From the NCBI RefSeq assembly GCF_008831285.2, contig NC_045142.1:25929876-25993875 (forward strand): DNA of 64,000 nt, given 5' to 3'. Below are positions 17,259 to 60,333 of this stretch, one piece after another. Source of the DNA: Nymphaea colorata. Lineage: Eukaryota; Streptophyta; Magnoliopsida; Nymphaeales; Nymphaeaceae. Every line of letters begins with the position of its first letter. Positions within the stretch are counted from its first letter, which is position 1. Position numbers and translations under genes: made by a program. A model generated the notes under the pieces. The model was not told where the DNA came from and ran no database searches. It saw only the letters and a program-made list of their open reading frames with translations.

Positions 17259-19281
17259 ATGGAGGAAATGGACATTGCGTTCAAGAGGAAGACAAAGTGG
17301 AAGAGAATTTTTTTTGGTTGCTTCTCCGTTATATTCATCATGGCAGCCGGAATTGGTATTTTCTCGGCAGTCGTGCATGCAAACAGAAGCGGCAACGACG
17401 AATTCGACGGAGAGGTAGACAGCCTTTCATCAGTGAGCTCCATTTCTGCAATATGTGGGCGGACAGATTACAGAGATGTATGCGTCTCCGGTCTATCTTC
17501 TGCAACAGGTCCTGAGCCTGCTGGCAGCCGCACAAAACAGTTGATCAGGAAGGCGATCGTGCTCACCATTGTTGAAGTCGCCAGGGTTTTGAATCTCACA
17601 GCTAACATTGCTTCAGCCCATCAGAATTTCTCTGATTTCAGGCAGTTTGAAGCTCTTGCTGATTGCCAAGAGCTCCTGCAGAATGAAATCGACGAGCTAA
17701 GTAATTGTCTGTCTGATGTTTCTGGCAATAGCTTGAGGGAACTTCCAAACAGAGTTGATGAACTGAGAAATCGGTTGGGAGCTGCTATGTCATATCAAAG
17801 CTCATGTATCGACGGCCTGACCGATACCCAAGTAAGATCAATGATGGAGAATGAACTGGTGAATGCAACCAAATTGACAAGCAACGCTCTCGCTATAGTT
17901 ACAGGGGTTGCCTCCATTCTCACTGATCTTCAAGTCGATGCCAAATCCAGTCGCTTACTTGCAGAGGAAGCCATAGAAAAACTCCAATATGATGGCAAGA
18001 AGGCAAGTACAGAATACCCATGTTGGTTTGAGTTGAAGGACAGGAAACTCTTGAGCCTTCATGATTCTGGAAAAGTGACACCAAATGCAATTGTAGCCAA
18101 GGATGGCAGTGGGCAATTCAAGGCGATATCTGCAGCACTAGCAGCAATGCCTGCGGATTACAATGGCAGATATGTCATATATGTCAAAGAGGGCATATAT
18201 GAAGAGCAAGTCATTGTGACAAAGAAGATGAAAAACGTCTTGATGTATGGTGATGGGCCAAGAAAGACGATAGTCACAGGTCGAAAAAATTACGTCGACG
18301 GGACGACGACTTACAGAACGGCAACTTTTGGTGAGTATTAAGAATTAATTTTGGTCATGATTATAGAAGCAATGCTGACGTGCTATGAATTCAAAACCAA
18401 TTTAATAAACAACCTTTGATGAGTATCTAAAGATTTTCAGTAGCATATCAACTAGGATCTCCGATTAATTGGAAGTACCACATTGAATTGCCAAGCAACT
18501 TTAAGTGTTTTACTAGGTTGGATTGAATCAATAAGTCCTTAAAAAGGAACTGAACAACAACTAACTCTTGAACCTGTTTACAGCCGTGAATGGCGACGGC
18601 TTTCTCGCGAAATCGATGGGATTCCAGAACACAGCAGGAGCTGCAAAGAACCAGGCAGTTGCGCTCAGGGTGCAATCAGACCGGTCTGCCTTCTTGAATT
18701 GCCAAGTAGAAGGATTCCAAAACACCCTCTATGTGCAAGCACATCGCCAATTTTACAGAGACTGTGTCATCTCTGGTACCATCGACTTCATCTTTGGAGA
18801 CGCTGCTGTAGTCCTGCAGAACTGCTCCATGTTTGTAAGAAGACCACTTGACCATCAACACAACACAGTCACTGCCCAGGGAAGAACTGACAAGAGGAGT
18901 CCAACAGGGATAGTTATTCAGAATTGCCAAATCATGCCGGATGCGGAGCTCTCCCCTGTTATGTGGAGGATCCGGAGCTATCTCGGACGGCCTTTAAAGA
19001 AGTACGCGAGGACTGTGATCATGGAGTCTACAATTGGGAAGGTGATCCGGCCACAGGGATGGACTCCCTTGGATGGTAGCTTTGCTTTGGCTACTCTGTT
19101 GTTTGCAGAGTATGAGAACAGGGGACCTGGTGCAAACACTACTGGGAGGGTGAAATGGAAAGGGCACAGACTGATCACTAGCAGAACAGAAGCACTTAAA
19201 TACACAGCCATTAATTTCATTCAAGGTAGGCTCTGGCTCAGGAGAACTCACATTCCTTATGCACTCGGCTTACTGAACTGA
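17259..19281 (+). CDS. Pro-pectin methylesterase with altered active site (PME-1)
   Basis: Two exons, 17259-18330 and 18584-19281 (intron 253 bp, GTGAGT...CAG), encode 589 aa. Residues about 19-40 form a membrane anchor. The PMEI pro-domain (about 60-220) has the expected Cys pairs (CGRTDYRDVC, ADCQ, SSCIDG). An RKLL processing-type motif precedes the PME domain. The PME domain keeps GIYEEQ, QAVALR, DFIFG (nucleophile Asp425) and the Arg of LGRP. The QDTLY box reads QNTLY: Asn404 replaces the Asp that acts as general acid in carrot PME (D136). LGRPW is LGRPL, and the Asn after DFIFG is Asp. PMEs demethylate homogalacturonan in the wall; this copy may be inactive or altered. It converges with the next PME, 597 bp away. 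Family call is secure; activity is inference. Confidence 0.95.
18331..18583 (+). other. Intron of PME-1
   Basis: GTGAGT donor after GCAACTTTTG and TTTACAG acceptor. The phase joins Phe to Ala-Val-Asn-Gly-Asp-Gly across the same position used by all PMEs here, a conserved intron of the family. Confidence 0.93.
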
Positions 19282-54305: not shown

Positions 54306-56040
54306 TCAGGTGAATGGCACGGTTGTCTTGGGAAGCCAATTTCCTCCTTGTACGAAGTTGGACACTGTGAAGCGGCTGGCATCACTGGAGCTCATGGTAT
54401 GGAACCCTGCCCACTTGACCCTGCCGCCGGTAGCTGCACCCGGACCGCGGTTGTTGTATTCTCCATAGTATAGAGTGCTGAGAGCAAAGCTGCCGGACCA
54501 AGGAGTCCAACCCGCCGGGTTGATCAAGCTACCAAGGTTGGACTGCATGAACACTGTCCTGGAGTACTGCCTCCATGGCCTGCCTAGGTAGGTATTCACG
54601 TTGGAGTGGCCGGCGAGGTCGGAGGTTGCCGCAACGTTGCAGTTGATGATCGAGGTGCCAGTGTTCTGGTTGGGATCGCTTCTCCCCTGAGCTGTGACCG
54701 TGTTGAATTGCCCAGAAGACGGCAGCCTCACATACATGTTGCAGTTTTGGAAGACGACCGCAGCGTTGCCAAAGATGAAGTCGACGGTGCCGTAGATGTC
54801 GCACTCTCGGAAGAACTGACGCATGGAGTAGGTATAGAGGGTGTCTTGGTATCCCTCGAAGCTGCACTTATAGAAGGTTGACAGGTCCGCGCCGTTTCTA
54901 ACAGCCACAGCCTGGTGCTTGGCCGGACCGGCCGTGTTCCTCACCGTAATTCCGATTGCTACGAACCCATCACCAAGTACAGCTGCGAACAAATTCGAAG
55001 ATTAGAGATCAATGTTTGAAACTTCAGATACTAGACTCATAAAATTGGTGTATTCAATTTCGAAACTTACAGAGAGTGGCAGAGTTGAAGGTGGTATAAC
55101 CGTCGACGACGTTACGGCTTCCGGTGATGATGGTGTTGCCAATTCCGTCTCCTACCATCATGATGTACTTCTTGGCCTTGGGTATGGTCACATACTCCTG
55201 GTACACTCCTGCCTTTACGTTGATCACGTAGTATCCCTTGCTCCCGTCGTTGGCCGGAGCCGCTGTAATGGCATCACCGATGGTGCGGTAATTGCCGCTG
55301 CCATCATGAGCCACCACAACGCTACCCACGGTCTGCAGAGCCATCCTCCGGCCGAAGCCGGAGCGGAAGATCTTCCTGTTAACCCAGTGAGGCACACCAT
55401 GTTCACCAACTCTGGTCCCGTCAAGCAATTGCCGTCCGGGGTTAGCATTCTTGTGCTTGAAGGCCCAGGAATTGGTGAGCATGGCCAGGGAGACACTGTA
55501 GAGCTGAGACCCATTCATCAGCGGAGCATACAGCTTGTGGCCCCTCCGCAAGAAGGACGCCTGGGTGAGGGCATCCAAACAAGTGCGCTGGTTGGTGACG
55601 ATGCCACTCATGAGGGTATGGACCAGGTCCGCCTGGTCTTCGGCCAGACTGGTGGTGTCACAGGAGTCAAGGGTGGAGAGGGAGGAGCTCAAGAAGTCCG
55701 TTGTTAGTTCAGAGAGAAGCAGACAATCGTTGAGGGCAGCTGCTGCTTGAGGGGTGAGGGTGGCATTATCTCTTATGGTCTCATTAATGAGGGAAGAGAA
55801 GGCGTAGGACTGCTGTAAGGACTTCTTGATAAGGTATTGGCCGTAGCCATAAAAGTTGGAGAGGGACTCGCTAGGCAAGAGAGACTGACAGAAGGAAGGA
55901 TCGGTAGTGAAGGTGCAGGCATGGTCCGGAGCAACAGGGCCAGAACTGTAGTTTTGGGAGAAGGAGGAAGGGAAGAGGAGTGTGAGGACGAAGAAGAGAG
56001 GCATGATCGTCATGCTAAAGGTTTTGGCAGAAAGCACCAT
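54306..56040 (-). CDS. Pro-pectin methylesterase (PME-5)
   Basis: Exon 1 is 55071-56040 and exon 2 is 54306-54982; the intron is 88 bp (GTAAGT...GCAG). The product is 548 aa. The ATG at 56040 is chosen because the upstream in-frame ATG at 56142 lies beyond the TATA box (56101-56110). A signal peptide ([15 protein letters not shown] core) precedes the PMEI domain ([22 protein letters not shown]) and an RQLL motif. Catalytic residues Gln347, Gln369-Asp370 and Asp391 and the LGRPW box are intact. The residue at the splice junction is Ser where the neighbours have Ala. Nearly identical to PME-4 in exon 2. Expected to be active. Confidence 0.96.
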
Positions 56041-58597: not shown

Positions 58598-60333
58598 TCA
58601 ACCGGTGAATGGCACAGTAGTCTTGGGCAGCCAGTTTCCTCCCTGTATGAAATTGGACACTGTGAACCGGCGAGCATCACTAGAACTCATGATATGGAAC
58701 CCAGGCCATTTGACCCTGCCGCCGGTAGCTGCACCTGGGCCGCTGTTGGCGTACTCTCCATAGTATAGAGTGCTGAGGGCAAAGCTACCGGACCATGGGG
58801 ACCACCCTGCTGGGTTGATCAAGCTACCAAGGTTGGACTGCATGAACACTGTTCTGGAGTACTGCCTCCATGGCCGGCCCAAGTAAGTCCTCACGTTGGA
58901 ATGGCCTGCGAGGTCAGAGGTGGCCGCAACGTTGCAGTTGATGATGGAGGTGCCCGTGTTCTGGTTCCGGTCGCTTCTCCCCTGAGCCGTAACCGTGTTG
59001 AATTGACCGGAAGAAGGCAGCCTCACGTACATGTTGCAGTTTTGAAAGACGACGGCCGCATTGCCGAAGATGAAGTCTACCGTGCCGTAGATATCGCACT
59101 CGCGGAAGAACTGACGCATGGAGTAGGTGTACAGCGTATCTTTGTATCCCTCGAAGCTGCACTTATAGAAGGTTGACAGGTCGGCGCCGTTTCTAACAGC
59201 CACTGCCTGATGCTTGGCCGGACCGGCTGTGTTCCTCACCGTAATTCCGATTGCTACGAAGCCTTCGCCAAGCACAGCTGCAAGATCGCAAAAATTTTAG
59301 ACAAACTCCCTAAGCTTCAGATACCAACAAAACTGGATCGTCTTTTAGTACCATGAATGTTCACGGTTCAGTTTCAAAACCTACCGAAAGTTGCAGAGTT
59401 GAAAGTGGTGTAACCGTCGACGACATTACGGCTACCGGTAATTATGGTCTTGCCGATACCGTCTCCAACCATCATTATGTACTTCTTGGACTTGGGTATG
59501 GTCACATACTCCTTGTACACTCCTGCCTTCACGTTGATGACGTAGTACCCTTTGGTTCCGCCGTTTGCAGGAGCCGCAGCAATGGCTTCACTAATGGTGC
59601 GGTAGTTACCGGTGCCATCCTGAGCCACCACCACGCTGCCCATGGTCTGCAGAGCCATCCTCCTTCCACTGGCGAAGTGGAAGATGTTTCGGTTCACCCA
59701 CCGAGGGGCACCATCTCTGCCTACTCTCAGGTCTTCCAGCAGCTTCCTGCCAGGGTTCATGGTCTTCCTGTGCTTGAATGCCCGAGAGTTGGCGAGCATG
59801 GCCAGCGACACACTGTAGAGCAGAGACCCGTTCATCAGTGGCGCATAGAGCTTGTGTCCGCGCTGCAAGAAGGACGCCTGGGTGAGGCCATCCAAGCAAG
59901 TGCGCCGGTTGGTGATGATGCCACTCAAGAGGGTTTGGACCAGGTCTGCCTGGTCTTCGGCAAGGGTGGTGGAGTCGCAGGAGTCAAGGGTGGATATGGA
60001 CGACACCAAGAAATCGGTGGTGAGCTCCGAGAGCAGCAGGCAATCGTTCAGAGCGGCCGCTGCCAGAGGGGTGAGGTTGGCCTTATCTCTTATGGTCTCG
60101 TTTATGAGGGAGGAAAAAGCGTAGGACTGCTGTAAGGACTTCTTGATAAGGTGTTGGCCGTAGCCATAGAAGTTGTTGAGGGAGTCACTAGGCAAGAGGG
60201 ACTGACAGAAGTCGGGATCGGTGGTGAAGGTGCAGGCGTGGTCTGGAGTAACGGGGCCAATAGCACTCAAGTTTAGGGAGATGGAGGAAGGGAAGAGGAT
60301 GGTGAGGACGAAGATGAAAGGGATGACGGACAT
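58598..60333 (-). CDS. Pro-pectin methylesterase with Lys in QDTLY box (PME-6)
   Basis: Exon 1 is 59385-60333 and exon 2 is 58598-59277; the intron is 107 bp (GTAGGT...GCAG). The product is 542 aa. A signal peptide ([15 protein letters not shown]) leads into a PMEI domain ([22 protein letters not shown]) and an RKLL motif. In the PME domain Gln340, Asp363, Asp384 and LGRPW are present. The QDTLY box reads KDTLY: Lys362 (codon AAA, 59141-59143) replaces the Gln that corresponds to carrot PME Q135, which helps form the anion hole. The change needs one base from CAA. Activity may be lost or altered; the gene is otherwise intact. Last of the minus-strand PME array. Confidence 0.95.

Follow-up and report, generated by a model that had tools for sequence, protein, structure and literature searches.

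Does a plant pectin methylesterase (PME) whose general-acid/base aspartate has been replaced by asparagine still work as an enzyme, and what keeps its reading frame open? This question is raised by PME-1, a gene of Nymphaea colorata that lies within a 64,000-nucleotide stretch of DNA (G000:C5:25929876-25993875), referred to here as the window, which we analyzed together with the genome to which it belongs (407.8 Mb in 783 contigs). In PMEs, the aspartate at this site (D136 in carrot numbering) acts as general acid and then as general base.

PME-1 is a complete type-I PME gene with asparagine at the general-acid position

PME-1 consists of two exons on the plus strand that together encode 589 residues with no internal stop. 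Exon 1 (17259..18330) encodes an N-terminal hydrophobic stretch recognized by eye, a PMEI pro-domain (PF04043; E value of 1.3e-27, profile positions 2–156 of 156), an RKLL motif and the first part of the pectinesterase profile (PF01095; E value of 3.5e-28, 98.7 bits, positions 1–82 of 298). It is followed by an intron with GT/AG ends (18331..18583, +; GTGAGTA ... TTTACAG) and by exon 2 (18584..19281, +), which supplies the remainder of the domain (E value of 3.3e-97, 325 bits, positions 83–297 of 298) and ends in a TGA stop. Both parts score well above the cut-off of 27, and together they cover the full pectinesterase domain (PF01095, CE8). The preliminary description of the gene as full length with good splice sites therefore holds. 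The PMEI pro-domain and the R[KR]L[LM] processing motif, here RKLL, place PME-1 among the type-I (group 2) plant PMEs. The same motif is present in five of the six clade genes compared (L007 lacks it), and the PMEI domain and paired cysteines of PME-1 resemble those of all six. Because its PMEI cysteine regions and RKLL motif are like those of its clade, PME-1 is not singled out as an inhibitor carrier, and the earlier suggestion of a PMEI-carrying decoy gains no special support.

Exon 2 aligns to carrot PME (1GQ8; E value of 7e-81) and to tomato PME1 (1XG2; E value of 1.9e-75) as the same domain, in each case over 228 residues without a gap; in the phmmer alignment, tomato numbering equals carrot numbering minus four. 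At window positions 18706-18735, the exon 2 frame reads VEGFQNTLYV. The asparagine of this segment is residue 404 of the protein (357 residues from exon 1 plus residue 47 of exon 2), is encoded by AAC at 18721..18723 (+) and shares its alignment column with carrot D136 (tomato D132). The presence of Asn in place of Asp in the QDTLY box, as first noted from the sequence, is thus confirmed.

Two substrate-binding tryptophans are also replaced

In tomato PME1, the catalytic residues are D132, D153 and R221, stabilized by Q109 and Q131, and the aromatic residues for substrate are F80, Y135, F156, Y218, W223 and W248, with F80, Y135 and W223 also touching PMEI, as given in PMC4008260. Among these 11 residues, PME-1 has lost the equivalents of D132, W223 and W248 and kept the other eight, with F80 present as Tyr at a position located by counting back from the phmmer alignment; the positions of Y135, F156 and Y218 are aromatic. 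In carrot numbering, four of the five catalytic-center residues of an active PME (EC 3.1.1.11) are kept (Q113, Q135, D157 and R225), and the general acid/base D136 is lost.

The two tryptophan replacements are additional to Asn404 and were absent from the preliminary description. W227L (TTA at 18994..18996, +) corresponds to tomato W223, a substrate-binding residue that also contacts PMEI, and W252L (TTG at 19069..19071, +) corresponds to the substrate-binding W248. Carrot PME keeps D136, W227 and W252, and tomato PME1 the corresponding D132, W223 and W248, whereas PME-1 has lost all three. PMC12109409 describes the Asp-Asp-Arg triad as strictly conserved in PMEs and lists Trp328, two residues after the catalytic Arg326, among the substrate-binding residues scored by docking.

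The replaced residues are conserved elsewhere in the family

Open frames of at least 40 residues from loci L001–L070 and from the window were aligned to the exon 2 part of carrot PME (phmmer, E ≤ 1e-6), yielding 84 genome rows, from which five rows of L004, L016, L021 and L024, loci that repeat window genes, were dropped before counting. Requiring at least 200 filled positions out of 228 retained 53 genome rows, which form a 55-row alignment with carrot and tomato, and set aside 26 less complete pieces. Counts refer to rows rather than genes; with scores for 132 of the 222 candidates, the family may have additional members.

Asp occupies the D136 column in 69 of 70 genome rows, the single Asn being that of PME-1, and Trp occupies the W227 and W252 columns in 62 of 63 rows each, with PME-1 contributing the one Leu in both. 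When ten key residues were compared in the 53 genome rows, five rows lacked one or more of them, and PME-1 alone lacked more than one. Across the other 54 rows of the alignment, conservation reaches 94% or more in 56 columns, and PME-1 deviates at four of them: D136N, W227L, W252L and Y263F (TTT at 19102..19104, +). Each of these four columns is invariant in all 54 other rows. Outside the cleft set, PME-1 is unchanged at 46 of 47 highly conserved columns; its losses at highly conserved positions are nearly confined to the cleft. Three of the four changes fall within the nine active-site or cleft columns among the 56 (hypergeometric P = 0.011), and a simple neutral model, whatever its rate, yields at least three cleft changes with at most one other change with a probability of at most 0.003. 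Both values are indicative, because the nine columns were picked once the four changes were already known; they equal the residue set of PMC4008260 minus F80, which lies in exon 1, and Y218, which is less than 94% conserved.

A bacterial sample, namely the best 80 of 575 loci found by motif, provided 102 ORF rows, of which 23 match neither motif; because of this selection, its counts are tilted toward intact sites. Among the filled rows of these best 80 loci, D136 is Asp in 99 of 100, both W227 and W252 are Trp in 100 of 100, and the Y263 column is Tyr in 84 and Phe in 15 of 99. Since Phe occurs in those bacterial rows, Y263F is probably tolerated or harmless; on the same alignments, D136N, W227L and W252L are likely to be damaging. 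The Asp counts at D136 in the genome and in the motif-biased bacterial rows rule out ordinary variation at that column. No second copy or haplotig of PME-1 was seen among the PF01095 genome matches listed (132 of 222 candidates scored).

Fold prediction, phylogeny and selection

A structural model of exon 2 (232 of 589 residues) has a mean pLDDT of 84, and its best structural match is carrot PME (1gq8; TM-score of 0.92 on the model, compared with 0.90 for tomato 1XG2), indicating that the PME β-helix fold is present. PME-1 groups with L007, L010 and L020 (support 99/88) on a long end branch of 0.48, and its identity to the other rows does not exceed 64%, the value for L007. The three sisters also encode a PMEI-like pro-region in exon 1 and, unlike PME-1, all keep D136, W227, W252 and Y263.

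Branch codon models were fitted to exon 2 (12 taxa, 221 codons) and exon 1 (7 taxa, 276 codons). On the PME-1 branch, omega was 0.059 for exon 2 and 0.030 for exon 1, values that are rough because synonymous sites are saturated (t of 2.5 and 7.5), and omega = 1 was rejected for both exons (2ΔlnL of 55 and 66, respectively). The test of purifying selection proposed in the preliminary description thus rejects neutrality over the whole branch. For the eight control tips tested among the 11 others in exon 2, omega was 0.06–0.33, and by this comparison PME-1 is not relaxed overall. Four other exon 1 tips tested gave 0.14–0.16 in three cases and 0.79 on the short branch of L007, for which a value of 1 was not rejected (2ΔlnL of 0.02); rows L017 and L025 were untrimmed at the exon end, and some intron may have entered this codon test. 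The estimate for PME-1 is an average over all the time since it diverged from its sisters, and any loss of catalysis may be recent.

Other PME loci

PF01095 exon matches are dense at about 25.95–26.13 Mb of G000:C5, a region that includes the window, and at about 23.73–23.88 Mb of C10. The window holds five more PME exon 2 frames besides PME-1. At window positions 58601-59296 (−), also recovered as L024, a PME carries Lys (AAA, within GYKDTLY) where the oxyanion-hole Gln is expected (Q135K in carrot numbering); the neighboring PME at 54309-55001 keeps Gln at this position. Elsewhere, L048 743-1729 (G000:C10:19022427-19023080) contains an open PME exon 2 frame with the nucleophile replaced (D157N, AAC), and its sister row L047 carries Y139C and R144S. 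A PME exon 2 at L052 155-856 (−) (G000:C13:12847387-12848049) has Pro for Q113 (CCA). L036 and L037 (G000:C7:2690900-2692100 and 2709800-2711000) encode identical exon 2 proteins about 19 kb apart and represent either a recent duplication or an assembly repeat. In L124, from Hymenobacter setariae, a downstream ORF is a pectinesterase-like piece that reads QNTVY, with Asn at the D136 position.

PMEs with altered catalytic residues in flax and maize

Among 105 predicted flax LuPMEs, some of which are short predictions, the D132 equivalent was reported in 91 and none was identified in 14, and the W223 position was reported as aromatic in 93 and the W248 position in 92 (PMC4008260). The same paper scores the type-I genes LuPME30, LuPME32 and LuPME50, which have fewer than three catalytic residues, as expressed, and LuPME51, of the same kind, as not expressed. 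These flax genes resemble PME-1 in their lost catalytic residues, with the proviso that some of the predictions are short.

In maize, ZmGa1P, ZmGa2P, ZmGa2F and Tcb1-f carry mutations among five conserved catalytic-center residues, and PMC9010485 presents unilateral cross-incompatibility (UCI) PMEs as proposed to act by contact with active PMEs, without activity of their own. The maize proteins are type II PMEs without a PMEI domain, whereas PME-1 is of type I. For maize pollen GA PMEs, PMC12239200 describes a Q to E substitution that all of them share, located at what is inferred to be an active-site residue and under positive selection. Not all UCI PMEs look inactive, because overexpressed ZmPME3, a maize Ga1 silk PME, lowers the methylesterification of silk walls, as reported in PMC9349285. 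The maize analogy is therefore itself unsettled. A literature search limited to openly licensed papers found no paper on the PME-1 gene. PMEs without catalytic residues have already been reported in flax and maize, and PME-1 is a clear new case from another lineage.

Discussion

From its sequence, PME-1 is probably a catalytically dead or crippled type-I PME, likely with a poor grip on pectin, that has been kept as a folded protein. We infer the loss of activity and, with less assurance, the retention of the folded protein for a non-catalytic job. Asn404 would be unable to perform the general-acid and then the general-base work of D136, and the reaction would not be completed; because D157, R225 and both Gln are retained, the protein could still present part of an active site, and with Leu in place of W227 and W252, pectin would be held weakly. 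Weak residual activity is possible because the nucleophile D157 is kept. Such a job would most likely be the tuning of active PMEs or their inhibitors through protein contact, as proposed for the maize cross-incompatibility PMEs, although that analogy is no evidence for PME-1.

The preliminary description had suggested a pseudoenzyme, perhaps a pectin-binding decoy. The pseudoenzyme part is strengthened because two more cleft residues are lost while 46 of 47 conserved columns outside the cleft are kept. The pectin-binding part loses ground: the replaced W227 and W252 (W223 and W248 in tomato) are among the aromatic residues that bind substrate according to PMC4008260, so that a role through protein contact is more likely than one as a decoy that only binds pectin.

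Other explanations account for parts of these data. A one-base error in sequencing or assembly would suffice to turn the GAC of the sister genes into AAC, and one assembly only is at hand; a single error cannot explain the whole active site, because two more substitutions lie in the same cleft and one of them, W227L (TTA), is two bases from TGG, which makes this explanation extremely improbable. It is also quite improbable that PME-1 is a still-active esterase of changed chemistry or substrate that turns over slowly with the help of Asn or some other residue. The four kept catalytic-center residues (D157, R225 and both Gln) are in its favor, and the Q to E change of maize pollen PMEs under positive selection indicates that active-site changes can be adaptive (PMC12239200), but both lost tryptophans are present in every filled row of the best 80 of 575 bacterial loci. 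The structure 2nsp is titled as a PME D178A mutant with hexasaccharide I; crystallization of this bacterial mutant with the hexasaccharide is consistent with a disabled enzyme. By alignment counting and a signal-peptide offset of 24 residues, we take D178 of 2nsp to be the Asn404 site of PME-1.

It is harder to set aside the idea of a redundant paralog in early decay, which lost catalysis not long ago, has no job and retains a leftover open frame. The family is large (the genome yields at least 138 exon matches to PF01095), and in flax the conservation of critical residues is generally higher in expressed genes, as stated in PMC4008260. An open frame would often survive a brief phase of neutrality: in simulations of base substitutions alone (400 runs per level), 56%, 28% and 16% of frames stayed stop-free once 0.01, 0.02 and 0.03 neutral changes per base had accumulated. 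We nevertheless regard early decay as somewhat unlikely: the changes cluster in the active site, at the indicative probabilities given above, the W227L codon is two bases off TGG, the PMEI domain, the processing motif and the splice sites are all intact, and conserved columns outside the cleft are unaltered save one.

Within our preferred reading of PME-1 as a catalytically dead or crippled but folded PME, a more specific version is rather doubtful: an old, selectively kept pseudo-PME of a probably early-diverging angiosperm that controls active PMEs or PMEIs through protein contact, as an independent parallel to the maize UCI PMEs with a PMEI domain of its own.

PME gene counts in plants are easily taken for enzyme counts. 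Annotation of the family would gain from inspecting the general-acid site together with both cleft tryptophans. With its scaffold kept and its cleft dismantled, PME-1 is well suited to a clean test of what PMEs may do in wall control apart from catalysis.
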